Source: Oligoflexales bacterium
GTDB lineage: Bacteria > Bdellovibrionota_B > Oligoflexia > Oligoflexales > RGVZ01
DNA: 64,000 bases
Direction: 5' to 3'
NCBI GenBank assembly: GCA_947494335.1
Contig: CANLUT010000006.1
Coordinates: 53,176 to 117,175 of the forward strand
Shown: in pieces, positions 6,325 through 64,000 of the stretch
Layout: each line of letters begins with the position of its first letter
Position numbering within the stretch: the stretch's first letter is position 1
Translations under genes and position numbers: made by a program
Notes under the pieces: model-generated
Databases searched by the model: none
What the model saw: the letters and a program-made list of their open reading frames with translations, nothing else
What the model was told of the DNA's origin: nothing

Positions 6325-8243
6325 AAAAAATCTTTCGTTCATCGCAGTTTCTGGTGGAGAGCCGTTTTTTTATAGCGAGCATCGTGATCGTTGGGGCTAT
6401 TCTGATTTTGTGGCTGCGGGTCTGGCATTTGCAGATCTACCGCGGAGACTACTACCGTAGAGTGTCCGAAAATAACCGTATTCGAAAAATTGAAATACCT
6501 GCGCCACGGGGTATCCTTTTTGATGCGCATGGCAAGGTCCTGCTTGGAAACACGCCGAGCTCCGACCTTATTGTGGTTCCTCAGTATATAAAAGATCGGG
6601 AAAAAACCTTCGACATCTTAGCGCGCTTACTCCACCAGCCTAAAGAGCTGTACGAGCGAAAATTCAAAGCCGCACGCGCACAACCCAGATTCATGCCCAT
6701 CACGATGCAGCGCAACCTGAGCCAGCATGAAGTCTCGATTATTGAGTCAAACAGACCATTTCTTCCAGGCGTTGAGATTCGAACCACAGCTCGTCGCGAG
6801 TACAACAAAGACATATCGCCTCACATGCTTGGCTACCTTGGGGAAGTTAATCCAACTCAGATCGATGATCTCAACGCAAAAAACCGCGATAATCCATACA
6901 TGATTGGTGATCTTGTCGGGAAACAAGGACTGGAAGCGCGACTTGAAAAATATATTCGCGGGCGTCGCGGATATAAAGTCATTCAAGTGGACGCATTTGG
7001 ACGCGCCTCAAACCCCTCCAAACAAGACTGGGTTCTTCCGATGGTACCAGCACACCCTGGTGCTAACGTGGAGTTGACCATCGACCTTGAACTACAGGAG
7101 TCAGTCGGCCAGGCCTTTAGCGGTAAAAACGGAGCCGTCATTGTCATGGATCCACGTTCGGGTGCAATCCTTGCCATGACAAGTCAGCCAAGCTGGGATC
7201 CATACATGTATCAGAGAGGCATGACAGTCGAAGAGTTCCGCGCGCTCACCTTGGATCCTCTCCATCCATTCATGGATAAAACCACTGGCGGTGAGTACCC
7301 TCCGGGCTCAACGTATAAAGCGGTCGTTGCCTTGGCTGGACTTGAAGAGAATGCTATCAACTCCTCGAAGTCATATTACTGCGGCGGTTCATTTTCTTTA
7401 GGCGCTCAAACATTTGGTTGTCATAAAAAAGAAGGACACGGATGGGTCAATCTTCGATCGGCTTTGATGCAGTCATGTGACGTCTACTTTTACCATTTGG
7501 GCATTGAACTTGGAGTTGATCGCATCGCAAAGTATGCCCGCGCGCTGGGTCTTGGCTCAAAGCTTGGTCTTGAGCTAAATATGGAGCGTCCTGGACTTGT
7601 GCCAACAGAGGCCTGGAAGCTTGCTACGCACAAAGAAGCCTGGGCCACAGGAGAAACGCCACCCATTGCGATCGGGCAAGGTTACAACCTTGTAACCCCC
7701 CTACAGATGGCAAGCCTTTATGGCGCCATTGCCACCAAGGGACAGATCTGGAAACCTTATCTCATCAAAAGAATTTCGAGCCCTGTCGGTCAATTGATTG
7801 AGGAGCGACAACCCCAACTCATACGCACTACTGATGTCATCTCGCCAGGTAATTATGAGCTGGTTCGACAAGGACTCGAGGCGGTGGTTATGGACGACGA
7901 AGGCACAGGGAAAAAGGCAAGGGTTCCTGGAGTCACCGTAGCCGGCAAGACAGGTTCGGTGCAGGTTGTAAACCTTAAGAAAAATAAAAATCAAACCGAC
8001 GTATCCATTCTTTGGAAAGAGCACGCGATGTTTGCAAGCTTTGCACCATCCGAGGATCCTGAAGTTGTCGTAGCAGTTATTAGCGAGCATGATGACAAGG
8101 GCGGTGGCGGCGCGTCCGCAGCACCGGTTGCGGGTCATATACTAAATACTTTTTTCAAACTGAAAAATAGGCGCGCCAATCTCGCCAGCGGAGCAACTGC
8201 AAAACCAAATCCTGGCCCGGCAAAGGAAAAAACCTATGAGTGA
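6321..8243 (+). CDS. mrdA: Penicillin-binding protein 2, elongasome transpeptidase
   Basis: 640 residues. Class B PBP that cross-links peptidoglycan during cylinder growth together with RodA. An N-terminal membrane anchor (about 12-33) is followed by the PBP dimer/pedestal region and the transpeptidase domain. The active-site motifs are present: PPGSTYK with Ser330 and Lys333 (SxxK), SCD (QSCDVYF; the SxN position with Asp) and KTGS from Lys543. The C-terminal tail is short and basic. It overlaps mreD by 4 nt and rodA by 8 nt. Confidence 0.96.
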   Translation: MKKIFRSSQFLVESRFFIASIVIVGAILILWLRVWHLQIYRGDYYRRVSENNRIRKIEIPAPRGILFDAHGKVLLGNTPSSDLIVVPQYIKDREKTFDILARLLHQPKELYERKFKAARAQPRFMPITMQRNLSQHEVSIIESNRPFLPGVEIRTTARREYNKDISPHMLGYLGEVNPTQIDDLNAKNRDNPYMIGDLVGKQGLEARLEKYIRGRRGYKVIQVDAFGRASNPSKQDWVLPMVPAHPGANVELTIDLELQESVGQAFSGKNGAVIVMDPRSGAILAMTSQPSWDPYMYQRGMTVEEFRALTLDPLHPFMDKTTGGEYPPGSTYKAVVALAGLEENAINSSKSYYCGGSFSLGAQTFGCHKKEGHGWVNLRSALMQSCDVYFYHLGIELGVDRIAKYARALGLGSKLGLELNMERPGLVPTEAWKLATHKEAWATGETPPIAIGQGYNLVTPLQMASLYGAIATKGQIWKPYLIKRISSPVGQLIEERQPQLIRTTDVISPGNYELVRQGLEAVVMDDEGTGKKARVPGVTVAGKTGSVQVVNLKKNKNQTDVSILWKEHAMFASFAPSEDPEVVVAVISEHDDKGGGGASAAPVAGHILNTFFKLKNRRANLASGATAKPNPGPAKEKTYE

Positions 8244-50090: not shown

Positions 50091-51245
50091 CTAGGACCTC
50101 AGGCTCTTCATCGCTGCTGCCACCCCAGCACCCAATTGGAACTTATACCCCTCATCAGCAAATGCAAACTCCAATGCTGCTAAGCCTTCGATAAGCATAA
50201 AGGGACTCACAAAACCTAAGTGACTAAACCTTATAATTTTGCCTTTCAAGTCATCTTGCCCACCTGAAATGATGGCGCCGTATCTCGACTTTGCAGTGGT
50301 CAAAATTTTTGAGCCGTCGATGCCACTCGGCACCTTGATGGCCGTTAAAACACTGGAGACCGCTGACTCGTCAACAAAAAGATCAAGCCCCATAGCTCTG
50401 ACAGCTGCGCGCGAGGCCGCTGCCAGCCGCGCATGGTGGTCTGCAAATCGCTTCGGACCGATTTCAGCAATCTCCTTTAAGGCGACATGTAAACTTTGAA
50501 TAAGAGAGACCCCTGGGGTCCAGGCTGTACGTCCCGTTTCCTGCCCTGCCCTCTCCTTTTCTAAATCAAAATAAAACTTGGCACGGCTCGACCTAGATTT
50601 CCACGCGCGATCAGAGAGCGCCACGAAACTCAGACCCGGGGCAACACCAAAACCTTTTTGACTACCGGCAGTGACAGCGTCGAGATGATGTTCATCCATC
50701 TTGATCTCGTGGGCACCAAGAGAGGAAATCGCGTCTGCAACAATCAGTGTTTCAGTGGAAAGGGCACGCACCTGTGATGCGATGGCGGACACATCCAGTC
50801 GAGCACCCGTAGACGTCTCGTGTGCTTGAAAGAAGATGGCTCGCGGTTTTGGGCAAGTTTTAAACGCTTCCGCGATTTGCTGGGAGGTCGGAGTCGAACC
50901 GTACTTGACCGAAATCGCGGTCACTTGGTTACCATAAATTTGATTGAGCTTCTGCCAGCGCTCGCCAAACTTACCTGCAACAATCACAATCACCTGATCA
51001 CCGGGACTCGTGAGATTTACCACCACCGCTTCCATCGCCCCTGTACCGGAGCAGGTCAAGATAACCGGTTGGGTACTAGTGCCAAATAAGGGCTTCAGCA
51101 TCCGGACACAGTCCATGACGACCGCCTCAAAGTCTTTACTGCGGTGATAAATATCGCTATCAAGCGCAGCCTGCTTGCTCCCCCAAGGCTGGGGGGTCGG
51201 CCCCGGGCAAAAGAGTCGATTGGGAGTAAAAAGTTCGCGGTCCAT
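50091..51245 (-). CDS. Class V aminotransferase (alanine-glyoxylate/serine-pyruvate type)
   Basis: 384 residues. FCPGPTPQP at the N-terminus, TCSGTGAMEAVV, ETSTGARLD, VADAISSLGA and the PLP-lysine in AGSQKGFGVAPGLSF define the AGAT/phosphoserine-aminotransferase-like group. The PLP enzyme moves an amino group from alanine or serine to a keto acid such as glyoxylate. Its Shine-Dalgarno GGAGGT lies inside a perfect hairpin (51249-51280), which should control its translation. It follows the polysaccharide operon by 43 nt on the same strand. Confidence 0.9.
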   Translation of the reverse strand: MDRELFTPNRLFCPGPTPQPWGSKQAALDSDIYHRSKDFEAVVMDCVRMLKPLFGTSTQPVILTCSGTGAMEAVVVNLTSPGDQVIVIVAGKFGERWQKLNQIYGNQVTAISVKYGSTPTSQQIAEAFKTCPKPRAIFFQAHETSTGARLDVSAIASQVRALSTETLIVADAISSLGAHEIKMDEHHLDAVTAGSQKGFGVAPGLSFVALSDRAWKSRSSRAKFYFDLEKERAGQETGRTAWTPGVSLIQSLHVALKEIAEIGPKRFADHHARLAAASRAAVRAMGLDLFVDESAVSSVLTAIKVPSGIDGSKILTTAKSRYGAIISGGQDDLKGKIIRFSHLGFVSPFMLIEGLAALEFAFADEGYKFQLGAGVAAAMKSLRS

Positions 51246-51288: not shown

Positions 51289-52560
51289 TCAATCTTTAAA
51301 CGCCTCACGAATTTCCTTTTCGGTCTCAGATTTCCCCAGTGGACTAAAGCCCTGGTCGGTTGGACCTTGCAACTTAGGATCTACCGAAACGTCCCAAAAG
51401 TAGACACCTTTGTACCAAGGAAATCCAGCTTCATGAAAAGACTTGAAAAATGCTCGGTACGCAGCCGCCTGGTGAGCAGCATTCATTTCACCAGCTCGGG
51501 AAACATATTCGAATGGGTTGACAAAGCCCCGAGTAATGGAGCGAAAGCCTACCTCTTTAAAGATCGCCGTCTTTGGCACGCCAACGACCGACTCAATCTC
51601 CACGAATACGTTATCTAACTGTGTTGCGTATCGATCACTGGTCTCCCGCAGGGTCTCGGCGAGCTGCAGCGTACTCATCATTGAGTAGTTTGTTCCGGGA
51701 TTTCCAAAGCTGCGATACATGTCAATTCCAATGACATCTAGCTCTTTCCAGAAGGCACAAAGATCCTGCCATATCTTTAATTGCGCAGGGTCAGTCGGAT
51801 TGGCTAGGTCGACAATCCGGTAGCGCCAACGGGCAATCTCACCACCAAATTCTGCTGCGGTCGGTCCGACAGCCTTGTCGTCGGTGAAATTAATATCGTA
51901 CATAAGGCGTACTTTTGCCCCCAACCTCTGCCTTGTGTATTTTAAAAGCTCAAGCCAACGCCCGGGGAAGCCATGCGGATGCTCTTTCCATTGATCCTCA
52001 ATACCCACAGTCATTGAGTACAATTCCGCACCGATCGTAAACTCCTCAACTTGGGTTATTTTCGCAATTGTCATGTAGATATCAAGATAGGTTTTAAATG
52101 ATTCAAACCATGCATTAGGATCACGGGGTTGAATATTCCCGTGCCACCAATTTTTTTGAGTACCATCAGGCAAGCTTTCGATCACCGGAGTTCGCCCAGC
52201 ACTGTCGACCACAAAAAAAATTGGTCTAATACCAACGGTCATACCCTTGCTTTTGATATACGCAATGAAACGACGATAGCGTTCGCGCTCTGCGGCACGA
52301 TCAGATAATGAAGTCATGGGGATAACTTCTATGCCTTTGGGATCCCGCATAATCGCGCGGGGACTAAGGCTAATATGACGACCACCGAGACTATGAATCT
52401 GATCTACAGCTTTTTGGGCCTCTGTTTTACTAGAGGGATCTGGACTCGCATCATACTTATAATCACCAATCTCTGTTAGAGAAAACCCTTGTACTAAATC
52501 GGAAGCCATAAGCGTTGCCGACTGCCAAAACAGAAAAGCCCACAAAAAGTATCGAACCAT
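51289..52560 (-). CDS. Exported GH113-like glycoside hydrolase
   Basis: 423 residues with a signal peptide (about 1-19). TIM-barrel glycosidase resembling GH113 mannanases: GGRHISLSPRAI, the WWHGNIQPRDPNAWFESF block, FTIGAELYSM with candidate acid/base Glu179, DVIGIDMYRSFG, and FKEVGFRS with candidate nucleophile Glu336. Likely cuts or trims a beta-linked polysaccharide in the periplasm. Last gene of the five-gene operon, 2 nt after the preceding gene; GAGGAGAT before the ATG. Confidence 0.8.
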   Translation of the reverse strand: MVRYFLWAFLFWQSATLMASDLVQGFSLTEIGDYKYDASPDPSSKTEAQKAVDQIHSLGGRHISLSPRAIMRDPKGIEVIPMTSLSDRAAERERYRRFIAYIKSKGMTVGIRPIFFVVDSAGRTPVIESLPDGTQKNWWHGNIQPRDPNAWFESFKTYLDIYMTIAKITQVEEFTIGAELYSMTVGIEDQWKEHPHGFPGRWLELLKYTRQRLGAKVRLMYDINFTDDKAVGPTAAEFGGEIARWRYRIVDLANPTDPAQLKIWQDLCAFWKELDVIGIDMYRSFGNPGTNYSMMSTLQLAETLRETSDRYATQLDNVFVEIESVVGVPKTAIFKEVGFRSITRGFVNPFEYVSRAGEMNAAHQAAAYRAFFKSFHEAGFPWYKGVYFWDVSVDPKLQGPTDQGFSPLGKSETEKEIREAFKD

Positions 52561-52562
52561 CT

Positions 52563-54365
52563 CTATCTCCTCATCGTTAAACGATTAAAAACTGTATGAC
52601 AAGCCACACCCCGACCTGCCAAAATATACTCAACTTCTATTTGCTGCTCGGACAAGAACAAAACTCTTGCCTGAGCAAACCGACCAACGTCTAGCTGTCC
52701 AGAGGTTAACGTCACAGCACGGGCCAGAGGATTAATGACACCGTACGCAAAAGGCACCGCAATCCACGCATCCTGGTCCATCCAATTTCCCACGACCCTT
52801 CGCCCGACTTGACTGATCCGTAACTGAATATCATGTCCCCCGCAGGTTCCAGACCATAGAGATGTCACATCCCCCAACGGTGGACCCGGAAGCTCTCGGT
52901 CAAAGCTTGTCACAAGCTCCTCTTTGCATGCGCGAAACAGATCCTGCCCCATCGGTGCGCCAAACGAACCAAAAATACAGTTAGAGTTCTCCTCGAGCTG
53001 GAAATATAGATCTGCTATGTTGTCGGCCGGTAGCTGGCCTTCCGTATTATCAAAAGGATAGCGAGTGGATTGAAATAGGGCTCTGTTGCTATCGTATTCG
53101 AAGTAAAAAACTGAATAAGGCACTTCAAACCCGGTCCTTAGATCGCGAAAACTCATCGTCGCCGCAATTCTCCCGCCACCCGTATGGAGAATCGTCAAGG
53201 TACCGCCTCCTAGTTTATCAAACCTAACCCCATAGGTTCCCTCGAAGTTCTTAAAATAGACACGTTTTATAATCTGTAAACGACTAGCAAAAGCGTCGAT
53301 CGATACTTGCTGCTGGCTCATCCCCAAATCTCCTAATCGCGCAGAAAGGCTCTTAGCTAGATTAAGGAGAAAATCTACCTGATCCCGATAAACTAACCGA
53401 TCGCTCAGAGTCACCAGTAAATTAGCGATATTGGCAACAACGGCTGCTGGAAGAATTTGGACCGCCCGATTTAATTCATCCTCAGGAACTGCCCCCCGCA
53501 AGTTTATGAGTCGCTGAAAGGCGTCATTTATGGAGCTTGCCGCAGCATTTTGCAGGCTGATCGGAGCACGCGGATTAGACCTGACGGCCTTGTCGAATAT
53601 ACATGCGAATCGAAGAGAACGTAGTACCTTAGGTACCGTATCAGCCTGAGAGGCCAACGAATGCATGTATGCATCAACCTCACTCAGCGCCGCAATGGCC
53701 CACACCTTTGAGATAATCAACTCTATATTTTCATCTGTCAGATTTGAAATATCGCGAAAAGCCCGTTTAACCACCGTAGCTTGAAAATCCTCAAAGGAGA
53801 GAATCACAAAAAAATCCGCACGTACCGCGTTTGCTAGAGAAATCACCCAGGCACTTTTATCGATCCAATTCAGAGTCACGGTTAAAGGTGCGTCATCTAT
53901 CAGGTATTGATCTTGTTGTTCAGCGAAGTTATTGCGACCATTATTATCCGCATACTTCATGAAAGCCTCAATATACTCCGCTTTATCAATATCGAGCCTA
54001 AGCCACTTGGTTGATGCGTTAGTTACAGCAAAGCCAAAAATCTTCACTACTGACTGCCCCATGGATTCTAAATTGTATTCAGCCTCTAGGACCGCTAGGT
54101 CATCCAAGATGAGAAGGTATGGATACAGCTCCTCTTTGGTGGGAACAATGGGGATAAGAGCCGTCAGATCACTGATAGCTTTGATCATTTCAATACGACC
54201 ACGCTTTGACTCCGTGATAAGCTGATCTGGGGAGGGGCTGATCGCTGACGATGCTAGTGACCAGCAGAAACAAACGCTTATCAGTAATATTTGAAATAGT
54301 GTCTTTTTAGACCAGCCGGACCAAATGCCGACAAGCCTTTCACTCGGTACACAATTAAGTTTCAT
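52563..54365 (-). CDS. Exported protein of unknown function in the polysaccharide operon
   Basis: 600 residues. Signal peptide with an extended N-region (hydrophobic part about 24-42). Residues about 45-370 look all-helical (TPR-like alternation of Leu/Ala/Ile). The C-terminal 230 residues contain two similar beta-rich segments (FEGTYGVRF ... GQDLF and WSGTCGGHDIQLRISQ ... CHTVFNRL) resembling lipocalin-like or carbohydrate-binding sheets, with a conserved 'GT-G' opening. No family recognised. Start overlaps the DUF2334 gene by 11 nt. A helical-repeat plus beta-domain design recalls periplasmic scaffolds such as the TPR part of PgaA or AlgK, but this is inference. Confidence 0.75.
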   Translation of the reverse strand: MKLNCVPSERLVGIWSGWSKKTLFQILLISVCFCWSLASSAISPSPDQLITESKRGRIEMIKAISDLTALIPIVPTKEELYPYLLILDDLAVLEAEYNLESMGQSVVKIFGFAVTNASTKWLRLDIDKAEYIEAFMKYADNNGRNNFAEQQDQYLIDDAPLTVTLNWIDKSAWVISLANAVRADFFVILSFEDFQATVVKRAFRDISNLTDENIELIISKVWAIAALSEVDAYMHSLASQADTVPKVLRSLRFACIFDKAVRSNPRAPISLQNAAASSINDAFQRLINLRGAVPEDELNRAVQILPAAVVANIANLLVTLSDRLVYRDQVDFLLNLAKSLSARLGDLGMSQQQVSIDAFASRLQIIKRVYFKNFEGTYGVRFDKLGGGTLTILHTGGGRIAATMSFRDLRTGFEVPYSVFYFEYDSNRALFQSTRYPFDNTEGQLPADNIADLYFQLEENSNCIFGSFGAPMGQDLFRACKEELVTSFDRELPGPPLGDVTSLWSGTCGGHDIQLRISQVGRRVVGNWMDQDAWIAVPFAYGVINPLARAVTLTSGQLDVGRFAQARVLFLSEQQIEVEYILAGRGVACHTVFNRLTMRR

Positions 54366-56151
54366 TCAGTTTTACCTCAATTGTTGGTTTTCTCTTTGGC
54401 AGCGTATTGGCGCGAGTCCAATCTTTGATATCGATGAATTCGTATCCATATTCCCGAACAGCTATGATTAGACGCTCTACTTCAGAGACATCTCCTGGAA
54501 ATAGTCCAAGTCCTGCGTTTTCCCGAGCAGATATGCAGAAAGGATGAATAAAAAACGAACCCCAAACGTCGCGGAGCACACGGTTTCGTTTTAGATTGGC
54601 AATCATCCCATCAACTGTCTGAATCCGAAAAACCTGCTCGTTCAAAAACGACTGAACATTACCAACATTTTCAGGAATAACTCGCTGGCCATAGATATCT
54701 CCATAAATTTCATAAGGGAAAAACTGGCCGTTTGGCAGCTGACGTTGATCGAACGTAACTTCAAGATCCTTCAAGATCCTCTCGCGCTCCGCTCGCCCTG
54801 CGGTCATGGAGCGGTCCATTGCCAAACCTTCCGGCAGATTTTTTGACTGACGCCACGAATGCGGGAAGTAGATATGACGACCTGCCGTCCATGAAAAAAT
54901 CTGCGAAAAAATCCGATAGGATAAAGGAGAAGCCTGATAATGCGGAGTGACCCACCCAACAAAATCAATCTCTGCCAACTCTAGAATATCAAGACCATCC
55001 TCAAGTCGCCCAAGTAGAAACGGCACATTATCTTCTGGTACAGCTCGATTATTTACGCGGTCCCAAAACTCGAAATCAGAGCCGGTCACTCCGGAAAATG
55101 GATTCCTCATTCTACCATACTGATGCGTTACTCCATGATACAAAAATGATCCACCTGCGGCTTTTGCATAGTTCAAAGCGTCTTTTATTATCGAGTCTCG
55201 GGTCAGTGGAACGAAGCGATTTGTGACATTATAAACCTCGACTCCAAACGGATCCGAGAAAATTGGAATTACTGTCATAACAAAGGGAACGGAGTGCTTC
55301 TTCAAAGCATCAATTAAATTGAATAGCTGCCATAACGGAATCATGGCATGTACGTCCTCTACTCTAAAAAGTGCCGGCCGGGGTCCAGATGTTCGTCGAG
55401 GCTTCTCTTTCAAAATATCAAAAAGCAAATCACAAAAAATGAGGTAACGGTCAGACTCAATGGCGTATGAAAATGGGCTATCCCCTATCAGCCACTTATT
55501 ACTCTTCTGCACAATATAGGGGATTTCTGGCACCTGAAGTGTTGAGTGCGAGGCCCATGATATGACATTTTCGCGATCTTTCTCGTCAAGCACATCAAAC
55601 ATTGATATTTCGAAGGCCGCATGAAACCTGGTTGGATCCTTCGGATCCCATTCGCCATACTTCTCAAATTTCTCACCTTTATAAGAGTAAAATCGGTAGA
55701 AACCAGGGCGCCGCTTCGAATCTAAACGACCGGACTCCAGTTTAGTCAAACCTTTGAACGACAACCCCCAAAGAGACTTGAGCCTAGTGTTACCAAGTTT
55801 CCAACTGTTGTAACCAGCCCAGACGACACTTTTCTTTGTGGATACGAAATCCTCCAAGAATGACTCTGGAACAGGAGCCTCATAATAAGTCGACAGGTAG
55901 ATAGTAGCTTTGCATGATTCGATGCCGCCAGACTTATAGGTCGCCATGGGCGCAAGCTTCACTTGATAATACGGAAAATGGCCTAAGACGTTCTCCAAAA
56001 ACATTGAATGTACTCTACCAAAATACGTCATTCTCTCGTCGCCAAGGATCGCATCATAATAGATCTGCAGACACTCGTCGCCATCGCTTGAAGCGGGATT
56101 CCCTTTCAAGCAGGATACAATTAAAACGACGATGAAAAAAAATCGACTCAT
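54355..56151 (-). CDS. DUF2334 protein, predicted polysaccharide deacetylase
   Basis: 598 residues with a short signal peptide (about 1-21). The DUF2334 domain (roughly 240-470), a divergent branch of the NodB-like deacetylase fold, shows LFRVEDVHAMIPLWQL (metal Asp candidate), VTVIPIFSDPFG, FLYHGVTHQYGRMRNPFSG (metal His candidates) and WVTPHYQASPLSYRI. The first 240 residues (YYDAILGD... MGDSPFSYAIE) are a separate domain I cannot name. It probably removes acetyl groups from the exported polymer. ATGA overlap with the glycosyltransferase gene. Confidence 0.85.
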   Translation of the reverse strand: MSRFFFIVVLIVSCLKGNPASSDGDECLQIYYDAILGDERMTYFGRVHSMFLENVLGHFPYYQVKLAPMATYKSGGIESCKATIYLSTYYEAPVPESFLEDFVSTKKSVVWAGYNSWKLGNTRLKSLWGLSFKGLTKLESGRLDSKRRPGFYRFYSYKGEKFEKYGEWDPKDPTRFHAAFEISMFDVLDEKDRENVISWASHSTLQVPEIPYIVQKSNKWLIGDSPFSYAIESDRYLIFCDLLFDILKEKPRRTSGPRPALFRVEDVHAMIPLWQLFNLIDALKKHSVPFVMTVIPIFSDPFGVEVYNVTNRFVPLTRDSIIKDALNYAKAAGGSFLYHGVTHQYGRMRNPFSGVTGSDFEFWDRVNNRAVPEDNVPFLLGRLEDGLDILELAEIDFVGWVTPHYQASPLSYRIFSQIFSWTAGRHIYFPHSWRQSKNLPEGLAMDRSMTAGRAERERILKDLEVTFDQRQLPNGQFFPYEIYGDIYGQRVIPENVGNVQSFLNEQVFRIQTVDGMIANLKRNRVLRDVWGSFFIHPFCISARENAGLGLFPGDVSEVERLIIAVREYGYEFIDIKDWTRANTLPKRKPTIEVKLNET

Positions 56152-57635
56152 CTCGTCCCTCCGTCAGCTGCCATAGGCAGCGTGCCCGCCTCCATAGGCG
56201 TAGATGCAGGCTGGCCAAAATCTTCCGGAAGTTCATGCGTTGTCTTAACCCAATCGAGATTTCGCCTGGTAATACGGGCCATCGTATCTTTGTAAACTGC
56301 GTTGATAACCGCTAAGCCGTTGATCACGTTTCCCAAAGGAAGTCGAATAGGAACAACGAAAGCAGCGCCAAATCCATAAACCCGACTGACGCAAATCATC
56401 CGCTGTAAGACTCGATTTACGGCAAAAAAACCGGCCACTCCTACAAAAAATTGCATCCTAGGCTCTGATAGCAAATCGAGACTAATCGCGCCTGTCCAAG
56501 TACCAACGGCTGCAGCGAATATCCAAATGTAACCCAAAATCATCAAAGGATTAGTTACAAGACCCTTACGATCCCGCATCAGAAAGTACCGATTAACGAG
56601 CCTGTCGGGCCAGCCAATGGACCGCCACGACTGTAATGCAATGCCGAGCGTCCAGCGGGTTTTCTGACGAATACTACGACGAAATGACTTCGGAAAAAAT
56701 TCACGTGTCGCGATCAACTCCCACTTGCCGCTGTCGCCATTTCTATACATCGAAGCTACGAAATCTTGTTGAATTCCTGCCAATCCAGCAACAACACCTA
56801 GCTCGTAGTCTTCCGTCAAACATTGACTATTAAATAGGTAACCGCCATTTTTAAGCTTCTGATTCATCACGAAAGATCGGGACATACACGTACCCACACC
56901 CGCTGATGGAATGGGCCCCCCTAGGAAACTACGAACAAGCATATCCTTCGTGTGGGACTCAGAGAACTCATCGATATACACGCCTGCCACAAGGGCCAAA
57001 TGACTGCGTTGCAGGGAGAAAACTGGAATTTGGATAAAGTCATTTCGTTCCAGGTGCCAATTAACTAATTTTAAAGACTTTGGATGGATGAGGTCCTCAC
57101 TATCGTGCATCAAAAATCCATCAAATTGAATCAGATTGCAACGCTCCCAATCTAGTATAGAATCGACGACCCAATTTAGAATTTGCCCCTTAGACGTCGG
57201 TCCATCTTGGAAATTGATGATACAATGAACTCGCGGGTAGCAAGACTCCAGTTTTTTAACGGCTGTAACCGTCTCTGAATCATTTGGATAACAGCCGATA
57301 AAAAAATGATAGGATGAATATTCAATTCGACCAAGATTTCCAACGATCATCCTCTCGATGATCGAACCCTCGTCCCACGCAGGTACAATCACGGCTAGCA
57401 TCTTTTCGGCACGATCATTCATTTGGTCCATATCGCGTTTACTCAAACGATTGGGACGGATCATCTTTAACCAAGCTACAGCATCAACGAAAAAATCATC
57501 CAGACCCGAAATAAGATATCCCGCCAAAAGCCCGATAAATGTCACCATCAGCAAAGTTGCTGCATGTTCATGAACTCTAGAAAAGAATTCCAGAGTCGAC
57601 GGCGAGCGAAAAAAATCTGTAGCGAATTGAGTCAT
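56148..57635 (-). CDS. Processive GT2 glycosyltransferase, NfrB-like
   Basis: 495 residues. Transmembrane segment at about 25-46, then a GT2 catalytic domain: AVIVPAWDEGSIIERMI, HDSEDLIHP in the DxD position, TEDYELG (catalytic TED) and the processivity motif RQKTRW (QxxRW); several further transmembrane helices follow (about 350-460). ARITRRNLDWVKTTHELP resembles the E. coli NfrB family. The C-terminal c-di-GMP-binding MshEN domain of NfrB is absent. It likely polymerises and extrudes a polysaccharide across the inner membrane. ATG 57635 with GGAG upstream, 1 nt after the previous stop. Confidence 0.9.
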   Translation of the reverse strand: MTQFATDFFRSPSTLEFFSRVHEHAATLLMVTFIGLLAGYLISGLDDFFVDAVAWLKMIRPNRLSKRDMDQMNDRAEKMLAVIVPAWDEGSIIERMIVGNLGRIEYSSYHFFIGCYPNDSETVTAVKKLESCYPRVHCIINFQDGPTSKGQILNWVVDSILDWERCNLIQFDGFLMHDSEDLIHPKSLKLVNWHLERNDFIQIPVFSLQRSHLALVAGVYIDEFSESHTKDMLVRSFLGGPIPSAGVGTCMSRSFVMNQKLKNGGYLFNSQCLTEDYELGVVAGLAGIQQDFVASMYRNGDSGKWELIATREFFPKSFRRSIRQKTRWTLGIALQSWRSIGWPDRLVNRYFLMRDRKGLVTNPLMILGYIWIFAAAVGTWTGAISLDLLSEPRMQFFVGVAGFFAVNRVLQRMICVSRVYGFGAAFVVPIRLPLGNVINGLAVINAVYKDTMARITRRNLDWVKTTHELPEDFGQPASTPMEAGTLPMAADGGTR

Positions 57636-57636
57636 C

Positions 57637-58422
57637 TTAGATCTCCCCAGACAGAACAAGCAAAAACCTTGCCGCATCACGGGAGTGAATAGTTTCCATT
57701 ATGTCACGATCGAATCTCTCGCCAAACTGAGCACGTAACCCCATCGAAAGAGGCCAAACTTGGTAGTCCAAAGACAAACCAACGCCTAAAAACATCCAAC
57801 TCCGACATCCTTCTACACACTCATGATAAAAAGATGCATCAATCGGATGCATCCCTACTATCAGATCTCTGGATCCCATTGAGACAGCTGATACGCGGAA
57901 CCACCCGGACCCCGAGGGTATGTCGCCACCTTTGCTTTTGATAATCTGAGAAAGTTCGACGTACCAACTAGCAGTTAAATCGTCACTGACTGACTGGTGC
58001 GTGCTCCCGTTAAGACTCAAAAGGAAAGCTATCTCTTCACCACTCTGCGCTTTCCACAAACCGTTTCTCCGCTTCTCCGCAAAATGACGCCCCTCCAAAA
58101 ATAGAGATAATGGCGTTGTAGGATTCGAAAACCGAATCCCAGCACCAAGACGCGATATAAGGCGTTCATAGCCATAGAACTGATTGACCCGTTCACGTTG
58201 CCCAGCCATTAACACGTAAGGCCTAACAGCACTAACATGATCTCCAGCATATGCGTGAACTCTCGCTGATGAGATATCTTCGAAGCTCGAGTGCGATGAT
58301 GTTTCTGATCGTTCAAACAGCCAAGTCGACTGCTCACCATAAAAGTCAAGGTCAACAGCGCCCGCTGCGGATGTCCACCCCGAGAAAATAAACAGCAAAG
58401 TCGAAAAAATAAATCGAAACAT
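57637..58422 (-). CDS. Outer-membrane-barrel-like protein of the polysaccharide operon
   Basis: 261 residues. Signal peptide (about 1-22), then alternating amphipathic strands with frequent aromatic ends (for example AVRPYVLMAGQRERVNQFYGYERLISRLGAGIRFSN, WYVELSQII, VGLSLDYQVWPLSMGLRAQFG), consistent with a small beta-barrel. Position before an NfrB-like synthase parallels the C-terminal domain of NfrA. I prefer ATG 58422; a GTG at 58431 is possible. First gene of the operon, with a promoter candidate at 58456-58483. Confidence 0.7.
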   Translation of the reverse strand: MFRFIFSTLLFIFSGWTSAAGAVDLDFYGEQSTWLFERSETSSHSSFEDISSARVHAYAGDHVSAVRPYVLMAGQRERVNQFYGYERLISRLGAGIRFSNPTTPLSLFLEGRHFAEKRRNGLWKAQSGEEIAFLLSLNGSTHQSVSDDLTASWYVELSQIIKSKGGDIPSGSGWFRVSAVSMGSRDLIVGMHPIDASFYHECVEGCRSWMFLGVGLSLDYQVWPLSMGLRAQFGERFDRDIMETIHSRDAARFLLVLSGEI

Positions 58423-58581: not shown

Positions 58582-61500
58582 TCAGGGACCTGCATACTTG
58601 CGAATCCACCAATCAGCGCCACTTGAGCCACCTATTTTATTCGATCCATACCCGATCATGTAAACATTATTGGCGTCATTTGAACCGCCACTGATCACTA
58701 CCGCGGTAACCTGATCTGCACCACCGATACCGTCAATGACTAGATCCCAGCTCGAAGTATTCTCAACGAGCGAGGAGTTAAACTGCCGCAGCCATAAATC
58801 TTGTGTGCTAACTGTCTTATATCCACCTACATAAACCTTGCCATTACTATCGACAGCAATACTATTTGCCTCATGATTGCCGCTAATGCCTGTACTGAAG
58901 TCAGCTTGCTGTGTCAGGGTTGAACTGTATTTTCTGATCCACCAATCCTTATCCGTGGTCGTATTAGTCCCAGTAACATATACATTTCCGGAAGAATCCA
59001 ATCGAATCGCAGCAGCAAAGTCACCAGAACCTGCAGAATTTCCGGTAGCGGTTGATTCTATACTGCAATCTGACATCCTCAGACGTTTCACAACCATTTG
59101 CTTATCTGGACCTGTAACGGTCTTAAATCCAGCGATATAAACCTTGGATGACGAATTATTAACAGCTACTGCCAGAGCCCGATCAGATAGACTTGCACCA
59201 CCCTCATCAAGTTTTTGCTCGCAAGACAGAGTACCATTGGACTGGAATTTCTTAACCCAAATATCCTCACCTGTTGATCCGCCAGCCAAATCGCGACCAT
59301 AACCTACAACGTATACGTTACCGCTCGAATCTGCTGCAACACCCAACGCCTCATCGTCACCATTTCCAGAATCAACCAGCATGTCCCAATTTGATGTATC
59401 TTCGACTCCAGCAGAGTTGTATTTTTTGATCATCCAGTCCCAATCACTTCCGTTCCAGCGCGATCCCGCGACGATCACGTTACCAGAGGAATCTACGGCA
59501 ACCGACCTTGCAATTTCATCAGTTCCGCTGTCACCAACATCCTTATTCCAGTTGATCGTGTCCTCAAAGCCGCGTTTAGAGTACTTTTTAATAAGCCAGT
59601 TTTTATCGCTTCCCGTGTGATAGCCAACTGCATAAAGGTTACCGTCACTGTCTACCGCGCCTGCCAATGGCTTATCATCGCCGCTACTTTGGTCGTAAGC
59701 AAAGTCCTTGTTCCAAGCATTTGAGGTCTCGCTCACAGACCATGTAAATGTGTTAGTTCCATAACTTGTCTGTGCCTGACCCGCACCATCTGTTGCCTTA
59801 GCTGACACCGTGTAAGTAATACCTCGCAGGAATTCTGAGTCTTCGAAGTCACGTGACCAACTGGTTGTACCCGTTACAGAAACCCAGTTTGGACAAGTCG
59901 CTGTGAAGTCATGTGCTGCGGAATCGTAACAGTTTCCGGTACCCTCTTTTATAGATATGCTCACCGACGATACACCAGTTGAAGAGTCCGCAGCGGTTCC
60001 GGAAATGGTAGCGGTAGTACCAGCAACTGTTGCCTGTGTTATAGTCCCTGTTGTTGAGACTGTTGAGGTTGGAAGCACGGTGTCCCGGGTAAATGCAACC
60101 GATGCACTATAAGCAGGAGTGTTCCCTGCAGTGTCAGTCGCCTTCACGCAAACTTTCCAAGACCCATCGGCAGTGAAGCCAGCATTGTTCGTCTTTGGAA
60201 TCGAGCTAGCATAAACTAGAGATGCGTCACAAGTGGTCGCGGAGGTAGCGACAGCATACGAAATCGCGTCTTGCCCAGAAGCCGTAACTGAGGCCACTGT
60301 GTCGGATGCCGCCGTCGAGTCCGCAGCCGTTAGGTATCCATCACCAACAACCGCAGCCAACGCAACTGCAGAGATCGACGGAGCACCATAGTCTGTCGTG
60401 AAATTTGCCGATGTGCCGTAAGCTTTATTTCCCGCGGCGTCGGAGATCTCAGCGCATAAACGGTAAGTGTTACCACCCACCAAGGATCCATCGTCTGTAT
60501 TGGGCATCGATCCAAATGTAATGCTTGCACCACAAGTGGTAGCCGAGGACGTTACCGCATAGGAATTTGATGAATTTCCAGAGGCGGTCAAGGTTCCCCC
60601 TAGGGATGTGGAGGCTGCATGCTCTACCGCACTGAGATAACCGTCAGCCACCGCAGAACCCAACGCCAGTGAAGTAAATGTCGGACCTGACGTATCAACA
60701 TCGACGTTACCGGAGGATCCATAGGTGATATTGCCGGCGCCATCTGTTAGTTTCACGCAAACTTTATAAGAACCATCAGTCGAAATGTCAGTCGTGTTAG
60801 CTGTCAAAGTCGCCGCGTAGGTTAGCGAACCATCACAACTAGTGCCAGATGTCACCGCTTTGTAGTTGGCTGCCGCAAAACCCGATGCCGTGAGCAGACC
60901 AAGAATGGATGTCGAGGTCGCCCTGTCAGCGCTATTGAGATAACCATCTGAAGCTGGACCCGCAAGCGCCAGAGATGTAAACGATGGGACTGCCGTATCG
61001 AGTACAAACGAACTGGACGCTCCATATGCGGGCGTATTGCCAACGCTATCTGTTCCGCGTGCACAGACCTTATAATTGCCGTCAGCACCAAAATCCGTGC
61101 TATTTGCCTGAGGAATGCTAGCCGACCAGCTTGAGACCGCAGAGCAAGTGGTCGCGGAAGCTACCAGGGCGTAGTCGATAGAATCCTGTCCGCTAAATGA
61201 CGCGGCACCTGTCAAATTGTTATTTAATAACTTGTCTGCAGAGTTGATAAATCCATCGGCTGCATCACCCGACAATGCCAGTGACGTAAAAGTTGGGGCC
61301 ACTGTATCCACTGCAAACGTCGCAGACGCTCCGTAAACGGCGTTGCCTGCATTATCAGACAGTTTGACACAAACCTTATAATTACCATTCAAACCGGCAA
61401 AATCGGAACCCACCGGCGCTGTGGATGCAAATCCAGACTGGGTTGAACACGAAGCCGAGCTTAACAGTTTCAAGTATTCGGTGAGGTCGTATCCACTTCC

Positions 61501-64000
61501 TGTCAATGTGTCAACCACAGCCGCCGTACTGGAAGTCTCAGAACCATTGATGGAGGAATTACCCGCCGCATTAGCCAAAGCGATACTTATAAACGTCGGC
61601 AGAACATTGTCGAATGCGAGGTTGCTCGTACTGCCATAGGTGGCGTTACCTGCAGCATCTGTGAGTTGGACACAGACTTTATAGTTTCCAACTGACGTAA
61701 ATCCGGAGTCGTTTGCCTTAGGAATCGCAGCTACCCAACTTAGCGGTAGAGCGCATGTTGCAGAGCTTGAGACGAGAGCGTACTGCAAAGATGTGTAGCC
61801 TGAAGCAGTGAGCGTACCTGCGATATCAGTCGATGCTGTATGCTCAGCTTGATTGATGTATCCATCAGCTGCCGTATTGGCCAGAGCAATGGACGTGAAG
61901 CTTGGACTAGAGGCGTCGTAGACGAATGTACCGGAAGAGCCGTAAGCCTTAGGGTTACCAGCAACATCCGACAATTCCACGCATACTTTGTAGGAACCCC
62001 CGTCTAAGGAAATCCCGGAATCATCTGCTGCAGGTACAGACGCTCCATAAGTTACAGCAGCATTACACGTCGTTGCACCCGTAACAAGTGCATACTTAGC
62101 AGTGTCGTAGTTTGTAGCGACGAGGTTGGTGACGAGTGCCGCTGTGGTTGCATGCTCGACTGGATTTAGATAGCCATCCGATACGACTGAAGTTCGGTCA
62201 ATTGACGTAAAGCTAATCGTGACGTTCGATGATGTGATCGTCGATGATGAGCAGTATCCGTATTGGTTAACAGCATCACCGACGCGGACGCATACCTTAT
62301 AGGCACCACTATTATCAAAAGCGCTGGCATTTGAGCCAGGAACCGCTGCGGCGAATGTCTGTGTAGCGTCGCAAGCAGCAACTGATGAGATGACCGAGTA
62401 TTTAGTTGACGACGCTGTCGAACTAGAGCCTGTAACGCCGCTAATCAGCGCTGTGGAGTTAAGATGCTCGACGCCGTTGATGTAACCGTCAGCTGCGTCA
62501 CCAGCCAGAGTTGCGCCTGAGCAGCTTGGAGCCGTGATCAGAGCTGTGAATGCCGACGTTGCACCATACGTTGGAGTGTTACCTGCATTGTCTGATAGTT
62601 TGACACAAGTTTTGTAGGTTCCGCCGTTAGTGGTGATCGATGCAGCATTATTCTGCGGCATCGATCCATAGGTCAAACTGTTATCGCAAGTGGTCGAAGC
62701 TGCAACCAGAGAGTAAGCTGCTGTGTCGTAGCCAGCGGCGGTTAAGGCTCCTGCTAAAGCTGTGGTACCAGATTTCTCGGAGATACTCAGATAGGTGTCT
62801 GCGACCTCCGAGCCGAGAGCCAAGGATGTGAAGCTTGGAGCTGCGGTATCTGCCGTGATAGCCGAGGAAGCACCGTAAGCCGCGTTACCAGCGTTATCAG
62901 AAAGCTTAACACAAACTTTGTAGGTACCGTTTAGGCCAGAGAAGTCACCTCCTGCGGGAGTCGATGAAGAGTAACCCGTCTGAGCGGAGCATGTTGCAGA
63001 ACTAAGTACTAGTTTATACTGAGTCGTATCTTGACCCGTAGCAGAGAGGCTGTTGACGACTGCCGTGCTCCCACTCGCCTCGCCTGCGTTGATGAATGCA
63101 TCCGATGCCGCGTTAGCTAGATCAATCGACGTAAAGACAGGGACGACGTTATCAAATGCTATGTTAGAGGATGATCCGTAGGTTGCATTACCGGCAGCAT
63201 CTGTGAGCTGGACACAAACCTTGTAGTTTTGATTGGTCGCAAAGAGCGCATCATTAGCCTTTGGAATAGCAGAGACCCAGGTTAACGGCAATCCGCAGGT
63301 GGCACTACTTGCCACCAGCGCGTAACGAACCGTCGTATATCCAGAAGCAGAAACTAGACCAGCGACGTCGTTAGGCGCAGCGTTTTCCGATTGATTGACA
63401 TATCCGTCAGCAGCCTCGTTTGTCAGCGGCATGGATGCAAAAGACGGCGCTGTTGCATCATACATAAATGTTGCCGATGATCCGTAGGCCTTAGGGTTAC
63501 CAGCTGTATCAGACAGTTCAACACAAACTTTGTAAGTTGTACCGTCTGATGCTATGGCCACATCGTCCGCAGAAGGAACAGAAGCGCTGTAAGATACTGA
63601 CGATCCGCATGTTGTTGAGCTTGCGACGATTGCGTATTTTGCGGTGTCGTAGTTTGTACCGACGAGGTTAGTGACGAGCGCCGATGCAGCCGCACGCTCC
63701 ACTGGATTTAGATAGCCATCAGATACAACCGAAGTCCGGTCAATGGAGGTAAAGGTAATCGTGACGTTAGATGATGTAATGGTCGATGATGAGCAGTAAC
63801 CGTATTGATTGACGGCATCAGCCACGCGAGCACAGACTTTGTAAGTGCCACTCAAGTTAAAGGCCGAGTGATCAGATCCTGGGACACTGGAGACGAAGGT
63901 TTGCGAGTTGTCGCAAGTCGCAGTCGATGCGATGACAGAGTAGTTTCTTGTCGAAACTGTGCTGCTAGCTCCAGTTAATCCGCTGATCACCGCTGTCGTG
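58582..64000 (-). CDS. Giant repeat protein: Ig-like modules plus C-terminal beta-propeller (5' end off window)
   Basis: At least 1805 residues; the N-terminus lies beyond the right edge. It contains about 13 modules of roughly 100 residues, each with a 'DGYxNxxE' opening, two conserved cysteines (TTC... and YKVC) and an 'AGN..YGSS' end, the look of disulfide-linked Ig-like or cadherin-like domains. One further Ig-like domain follows, then about 380 residues with seven repeats (DSSGNVYVVGY...) typical of an SBBP-type seven-bladed beta-propeller. Probably a secreted or surface protein for adhesion or binding. It precedes the polysaccharide operon by 160 nt on the same strand. Confidence 0.85.
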   Translation of the reverse strand, partial: TTAVISGLTGASSTVSTRNYSVIASTATCDNSQTFVSSVPGSDHSAFNLSGTYKVCARVADAVNQYGYCSSSTITSSNVTITFTSIDRTSVVSDGYLNPVERAAASALVTNLVGTNYDTAKYAIVASSTTCGSSVSYSASVPSADDVAIASDGTTYKVCVELSDTAGNPKAYGSSATFMYDATAPSFASMPLTNEAADGYVNQSENAAPNDVAGLVSASGYTTVRYALVASSATCGLPLTWVSAIPKANDALFATNQNYKVCVQLTDAAGNATYGSSSNIAFDNVVPVFTSIDLANAASDAFINAGEASGSTAVVNSLSATGQDTTQYKLVLSSATCSAQTGYSSSTPAGGDFSGLNGTYKVCVKLSDNAGNAAYGASSAITADTAAPSFTSLALGSEVADTYLSISEKSGTTALAGALTAAGYDTAAYSLVAASTTCDNSLTYGSMPQNNAASITTNGGTYKTCVKLSDNAGNTPTYGATSAFTALITAPSCSGATLAGDAADGYINGVEHLNSTALISGVTGSSSTASSTKYSVISSVAACDATQTFAAAVPGSNASAFDNSGAYKVCVRVGDAVNQYGYCSSSTITSSNVTISFTSIDRTSVVSDGYLNPVEHATTAALVTNLVATNYDTAKYALVTGATTCNAAVTYGASVPAADDSGISLDGGSYKVCVELSDVAGNPKAYGSSGTFVYDASSPSFTSIALANTAADGYINQAEHTASTDIAGTLTASGYTSLQYALVSSSATCALPLSWVAAIPKANDSGFTSVGNYKVCVQLTDAAGNATYGSTSNLAFDNVLPTFISIALANAAGNSSINGSETSSTAAVVDTLTGSGYDLTEYLKLLSSASCSTQSGFASTAPVGSDFAGLNGNYKVCVKLSDNAGNAVYGASATFAVDTVAPTFTSLALSGDAADGFINSADKLLNNNLTGAASFSGQDSIDYALVASATTCSAVSSWSASIPQANSTDFGADGNYKVCARGTDSVGNTPAYGASSSFVLDTAVPSFTSLALAGPASDGYLNSADRATSTSILGLLTASGFAAANYKAVTSGTSCDGSLTYAATLTANTTDISTDGSYKVCVKLTDGAGNITYGSSGNVDVDTSGPTFTSLALGSAVADGYLSAVEHAASTSLGGTLTASGNSSNSYAVTSSATTCGASITFGSMPNTDDGSLVGGNTYRLCAEISDAAGNKAYGTSANFTTDYGAPSISAVALAAVVGDGYLTAADSTAASDTVASVTASGQDAISYAVATSATTCDASLVYASSIPKTNNAGFTADGSWKVCVKATDTAGNTPAYSASVAFTRDTVLPTSTVSTTGTITQATVAGTTATISGTAADSSTGVSSVSISIKEGTGNCYDSAAHDFTATCPNWVSVTGTTSWSRDFEDSEFLRGITYTVSAKATDGAGQAQTSYGTNTFTWSVSETSNAWNKDFAYDQSSGDDKPLAGAVDSDGNLYAVGYHTGSDKNWLIKKYSKRGFEDTINWNKDVGDSGTDEIARSVAVDSSGNVIVAGSRWNGSDWDWMIKKYNSAGVEDTSNWDMLVDSGNGDDEALGVAADSSGNVYVVGYGRDLAGGSTGEDIWVKKFQSNGTLSCEQKLDEGGASLSDRALAVAVNNSSSKVYIAGFKTVTGPDKQMVVKRLRMSDCSIESTATGNSAGSGDFAAAIRLDSSGNVYVTGTNTTTDKDWWIRKYSSTLTQQADFSTGISGNHEANSIAVDSNGKVYVGGYKTVSTQDLWLRQFNSSLVENTSSWDLVIDGIGGADQVTAVVISGGSNDANNVYMIGYGSNKIGGSSGADWWIRKYAGP
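60916..64000 (-). repeat. Higher-order tandem repeat, 1542-nt period
   Basis: Matching landmarks recur exactly 1542 nt (514 codons, five modules) apart, for example 62251/63793, 61384/62926 and 61643/63185. The second copy's last module has diverged or been replaced. The edge of the window probably cuts a further copy. Confidence 0.85.

Follow-up and report, generated by a model that had tools for sequence, protein, structure and literature searches.

The window analysed here, a 64,000-nucleotide stretch of contig CANLUT010000006.1 from an Oligoflexales bacterium, carries five tightly packed genes, E-D-C-B-A, that probably work as one unit: a synthase-dependent exopolysaccharide system of the Nfr/NGR type, in which a chain, most likely of N-acetylmannosamine (ManNAc), would be made, partly deacetylated, cut, guided and exported. 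Gene order, protein families, catalytic residues, co-occurrence in other genomes and a relationship between the E family and the barrel of NfrA are read from the sequences and carry this assignment. An earlier note on the same DNA had proposed an operon for exopolysaccharide synthesis, modification and export, a view that is strongly supported by families, co-occurrence and synteny. New are the DUF2334 enzyme as a partner of an NfrB-type synthase, a barrel split from its tetratricopeptide repeat (TPR) scaffold, and protein B.

In the proposed mechanism, the single transcript, the ManNAc substrate, the deacetylation and export steps and what B and E do are all inferred. The enzyme WecB, encoded elsewhere in the genome, would convert UDP-N-acetylglucosamine (UDP-GlcNAc) to UDP-ManNAc. 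At the inner membrane D would polymerise a nucleotide sugar, most likely UDP-ManNAc, and pass the chain to the periplasm, where C would remove part of the acetyl groups. A would cleave the chain, to clear or size the polymer, and B would hold chain and enzymes en route to the outer membrane, substituting for the TPR part of NfrA. E, a free-standing barrel of the NfrA type, is proposed as the exit pore through the outer membrane. In Escherichia coli NfrB depends on WecB and so on UDP-ManNAc, and secretion is proposed to run through NfrA as the channel (PMC8669469, PMC8669472).

Gene organisation

Five open reading frames (ORFs) were confirmed from 58422 down to 51289 (Table 1), exactly as the touching or overlapping minus-strand genes had been described. 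E and D share 44 nt if D begins at a GTG (57637/57680); an ATG at about 57635 would make the two genes adjacent. D and C overlap by 4 nt (56151/56148) and C and B by 11 nt (54365/54355), and B and A are spaced by 2 nt. Signal-peptide-like N-termini are found in E, C, B and A.

Table 1. Genes of the operon, with positions in the window
Gene	Coordinates	Strand	Length	Description
E	57637..58422	minus	261 aa	signal peptide; small exported, barrel-like protein; no family match
D	56148..57680	minus	510 aa	NfrB-like processive GT2
C	54355..56151	minus	598 aa	exported DUF2334 protein, deacetylase-like
B	52563..54365	minus	600 aa	exported protein, family not recognised
A	51289..52560	minus	423 aa	exported GH113 protein

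Co-occurrence and synteny

Homologues were sought in three ways: in loci selected by the DUF2334 protein, in loci of the Bdellovibrio phylum selected by the glycosyltransferase (GT; gene D), and as presence or absence in 368 Bdellovibrio-phylum genomes. Of these genomes 54 contain the GT, 52 the DUF2334 protein (several of these matches being short, N-terminal-only copies) and 21 B. The GT and the DUF2334 protein share 48 genomes, the GT and B 20, and the DUF2334 protein and B 21, with Fisher p-values, which ignore shared descent, of 1e-48, 1e-17 and 2e-20, respectively.

Among the neighbours of the GT, E is the most constant: in 31 of the 38 GT-selected loci it immediately precedes the GT on the same strand. 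Of these 38 loci, 26 contain wecB, 22 a full-length DUF2334 protein, 15 GH113 and 10 B. The order E-GT-DUF2334-B-GH113 was found in eight loci (L010, L011, where E lies at 6918-7631, L148, L150, L151, L154, L162 and L167), usually with wecB adjacent. Because co-occurrence and gene order recur in other genomes, the five-gene set goes beyond chance clustering; the neighbourhood search proposed in the earlier note thus returned homologues that stand together, in conserved order in these eight loci. The link to wecB had escaped that note, and in the window's genome wecB is unlinked.

Similarly, the 52 DUF2334-selected loci with full flanks contain the GT (32), wecB (28), NfrA (38) and DUF4434 (24), and 42 of them have at least one of GT, wecB and NfrA. 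Comamonadaceae carry wecB-GT2-DUF2334-NfrA-DUF4434 loci, and in Streptomyces wecB-GT2/DUF2334-GH113 occur together. The genes for wecB, GT2, DUF2334 and GH113 are grouped on the plasmid NZ_CP108510.1 (L005) of Streptomyces, a monoderm that has no outer membrane.

The synthase and its precursor

Family searches agreed with the reading of these genes as an NfrB-like GT2 with a QxxRW motif, a DUF2334 protein, a GH113 protein and, in B, a protein of no recognised family. D matches PF13641 (GT2) at 4e-37 and passes the NCBIfam model NF011305 with 420.8 bits (cut-off 409); the match to the NfrB model NF008411 reaches 1.2e-106, yet falls below that model's own cut-off. Across the catalytic part D is 36-37% identical to E. 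coli NfrB, and DxED, TED and QxxRW are invariant in the alignment of the two (in D as D193-S-E-D, TEDY 289 and RQKTRW 338). Hydrophobic segments at 40-58, 374-403 and 429-459 flank the GT domain as in NfrB; those at the C-terminus resemble the corresponding segments of NfrB, which speaks against the refuting case named in the earlier note, a GT2 that lacks channel-forming helices. E. coli NfrB has a Pfam MshEN domain, which makes it dependent on cyclic di-GMP (c-di-GMP), whereas Pfam finds no such c-di-GMP domain in D, which ends after the membrane part.

The window's genome has one Epimerase_2 gene (wecB; G000:C1, 374.5 bits), whose product is about 50% identical to system-linked WecBs.

The barrel-like protein

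No Pfam or NCBIfam family matches E, and the relation to NfrA emerges from the family as a whole. The profile of syntenic E proteins aligns with that of the NfrA C-terminal barrel in hhalign with a probability of 91, an E-value of 1.1e-6 and a score of 49.8, whereas none of 60 column shuffles scored above 16.3 and reversed controls gave about 12. The score is 47.7 without the window sequence and 43.3 with 45 sequences. A hidden Markov model from 44 other E proteins finds the window copy, an outlier of the family, at E = 2.6e-4. The nearest solved folds to the structural model of the window protein are outer-membrane barrels (Z at most 6.6), the best neighbour being 1qjp (Z 6.6, root-mean-square deviation 4.1, 99 aligned residues). 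Judged from the family profile, E probably forms a beta barrel in the outer membrane, akin to the one at the C-terminus of NfrA. A search of the window's genome with PF13283 (NfrA_C) itself gave no match, even at E 1, so there is no TPR-barrel NfrA.

The deacetylase-like and hydrolase-like enzymes

C matches DUF2334 at 1.3e-34 and combines an N-terminal domain of about 250 aa with a deacetylase-fold domain. The residues E265, D266, H339 and H343 are present in all 82 sequences compared, and H536 in 81 of the 81 with a residue at that position; this conservation has to be read with caution, because most of the sequences were fetched with two patterns, one of them the HGxTHQ motif. With its acidic base, D-H-H metal set and late histidine kept, C is a putative deacetylase. 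Profile matches of its N-terminal domain to CBM87 and of its catalytic domain to Agd3_CE were unconvincing. A lipoprotein assignment was likewise dropped, the IVSC at position 14 of the window copy not being kept in the orthologues compared.

Stand-alone genes of 230-260 aa correspond to the N-terminal domain of the DUF2334 protein and lack its catalytic part (L139-L146; G216:C1:3181977-3182666; G209:C9:135253-135903; L202, L203). Some of them neighbour the GT, some neighbour B and others stand by themselves. All that is left of the GT in L200 is a remnant of 252 aa. Either the N-terminal domain might serve a function of its own, or these systems may be decaying. Long forms of the DUF2334 protein (about 930-1000 aa) occur in the Bdellovibrio-phylum loci L159, L168, L175, L176 and L177.

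A matches GH113 at 4.3e-20. Aligned with the GH113 mannanases 5ylh, 4cd6 and 3civ, it keeps both catalytic glutamate positions, in GAEL 177-180 and as E336 in KEVGFRS; the nucleophile position aligns with the E-to-A site in the 5yli chain, the same enzyme as 5ylh. A is a predicted GH113 hydrolase related to beta-1,4-mannanases. DUF4434, tried as a distant homologue of GH113, gave no profile match between the families.

Protein B

B has no Pfam or NCBIfam match. Its AlphaFold2 (AF2) model (predicted local distance difference test score, pLDDT, 81.7; predicted template modelling score, pTM, 0.71) is confident and shows a helical superhelix at 46-372 followed by two small domains with a beta-barrel fold, at 376-484 and 502-595. 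The structure search returned helical repeats and lipocalin/Omp19-like barrels, a resemblance at the level of common arrangements and with Z under the tool's trust level for helical repeats; none of the known TPR scaffolds of exporters was prominent among the results. B was also considered as a divergent TPR part of NfrA, for which there was no profile match. The search found no B on plasmids.

Two genomes of the window's own family, G006 and G009, contain B homologues (E 1e-55 to 1e-56) without the GT2 and the DUF2334 protein. At L106:4342-18146 and L107:667-14350 a B homologue belongs to a Pel-like cluster of two PelF-type GT4s, an Agd3-type deacetylase, a CBM87 protein and a GHL15 hydrolase, the contents of the L107 cluster being assigned by similarity. 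Although their synthases are of two unrelated types, both kinds of polysaccharide locus pair a deacetylase with a hydrolase and carry B, whose role in the periplasm may therefore be a general one. More tentatively, and with the odds rather against it, B could be the first member of a new class of scaffolds or adaptors for exopolysaccharides in the periplasm. Such a protein would serve NfrB-type (GT2) and PelF-type (GT4) synthases alike, link the exit to a deacetylase and a hydrolase that are separate proteins, and replace the barrel-fused TPR part.

The position of B in the loci is itself variable. Unrelated exported proteins of 510-620 aa fill or neighbour it in L157 (11312-13165), L160 (11316-13148), L156 (11284-12837) and L076 (6133-7677), the last with a TGase_elicitor match, and the slot is therefore exchangeable. 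No B homologue was found among the 500-620-aa proteins in or near the slot of L155, L156, L157, L160 and L076.

Weighing the alternatives

Several observations weigh against an Nfr/NGR-type export system in the window. The chemistry of NfrB-type glycans is unsolved even for E. coli. We found no solved structure related to DUF2334 by sequence, and the literature search returned no tested activity for this family, only a passing mention. The window copy of E is divergent: its AF2 model, with about ten strands, is poor (pLDDT 46), and alone it scores 18.3 against NfrA_C, with shuffles reaching 16.1. The outer-membrane-like barrel of the earlier note is hence upheld by the profile homology of the E family to NfrA_C but only weakly by the window copy taken alone. 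The GT and the DUF2334 protein are absent from all 57 other genomes searched in the window's phylum; with the lower G+C of the operon (45-46%, versus about 49-51% on either flank), this indicates that the operon was probably acquired or is a rare survivor. To these comes the place of the single wecB gene, on a different contig from the operon and among unrelated genes.

This unlinked wecB means that the sugar may differ in the window system. The same machinery could use another donor (UDP-GlcNAc, GDP-mannose or other), with wecB serving elsewhere and the GH113 protein acting on a mannan- or glucan-like chain, and the fact that the PDB relatives of A are endo-beta-1,4-mannanases fits such a chain. 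We regard this as rather unlikely, since wecB lies within the locus in most relatives, including loci with the same five-gene order, the E. coli counterpart needs wecB, and a deacetylase-like enzyme implies an acetylated sugar.

It is also unlikely that the product is a short envelope glycan, capsule-like or linked to lipid or protein, which is not secreted and for which E would be an accessory barrel without a pore. At 261 aa E is small, like barrels of 8-10 strands, which often have no open pore, its model is uncertain, and accounts of the N4 receptor glycan place it on the cell surface. The E family nonetheless aligns to the barrel of NfrA, the proposed secretion channel, and E is the neighbour that the GT keeps most faithfully. 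A third alternative, the breakdown of a foreign glycan such as that of prey by B, C and A next to an unrelated D, would accord with the hydrolase-type nature of C and A and with predators among the relatives. It is highly improbable and was rejected, given that 48 of the 52 genomes with the DUF2334 protein have the NfrB-type synthase as well; moreover, the window genes overlap and WecB is encoded in the same loci.

Comparison with known systems

A close parallel to the proposed ManNAc export system is NfrBA-YbcH/NGR of E. coli, which makes the glycan receptor of phage N4 (PMC8669469, PMC8669472) and with which it shares an NfrB-type GT2, a WecB-supplied precursor, an outer-membrane barrel homologous to the E family and a third exported protein, in E. 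coli the DUF4434 protein YbcH. In E. coli NfrA, TPR scaffold and barrel form one chain, whereas the barrel E is free; the E. coli nfr operon examined is without a DUF2334 deacetylase and B, both present in the window, and DUF4434 stands where the window has GH113. The window system is a variant of the Nfr kind and not a full member, because it has no NfrA with TPR and NfrA_C parts, only the distantly related free barrel E. The Comamonadaceae/Burkholderiales wecB-nfrB-DUF2334-nfrA-DUF4434 loci (L003 and others) share GT, DUF2334 and wecB, and their NfrA barrel is homologous to E, but where the window has E, B and GH113 these loci have a TPR-barrel NfrA and DUF4434.

Clostridioides difficile 630 offers a precedent for the enzymes. 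Its operon of GT2, GH113, WecB and a CE4-like deacetylase is predicted to make a partially deacetylated ManNAc-rich polymer (PMC7710045) and follows the same logic as the window system; in this monoderm there is a BcsB-like protein and no outer membrane to cross, and B is not reported. The PGR system of Acinetobacter baumannii has an NfrB-homologous synthase (PgrC), a WecB homologue (PgrF), a predicted separate outer-membrane porin (PgrG) and a PgaB-C-like protein (PgrE), and a ManNAc polymer is proposed as its product (PMC12507263). It differs in its BcsB-like PgrD, and DUF2334, GH113 and B are not reported (PMC12507263).

The Pga (poly-N-acetylglucosamine, PNAG) and Pel systems use the same kinds of parts, namely an inner-membrane synthase or GT, a periplasmic deacetylase and hydrolase, a scaffold and an outer-membrane barrel, but their GT, deacetylase and hydrolase families differ from those of the window. 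PgaB and PelA fuse deacetylase and hydrolase, whereas C and A are separate genes, a distinction already drawn in the earlier note. Its further statement that the combination resembles no known system was overstated in view of the Nfr-type barrel, wecB, the third exported protein and the C. difficile precedent (PMC7710045).

Genomic context

Directly upstream of the operon, on the minus strand at 58582-63990, lies a repetitive ORF of at least 1802 aa that continues past the end of the window and is possibly a surface protein. A class-V aminotransferase gene follows 43 nt downstream (50091-51245, minus strand), separated from the operon by the inverted repeat ATGACCTCCAA...TTGGAGGTCAT, and is probably a separate unit.

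Implications

The DUF2334 and GH113 enzymes of this widespread NfrB-type lineage provide direct handles on the structure of the Nfr/NGR glycan, and the DUF2334 family thereby gains a testable role. The arrangement also suggests that the scaffold and the barrel of an exporter may be separable, exchangeable proteins.

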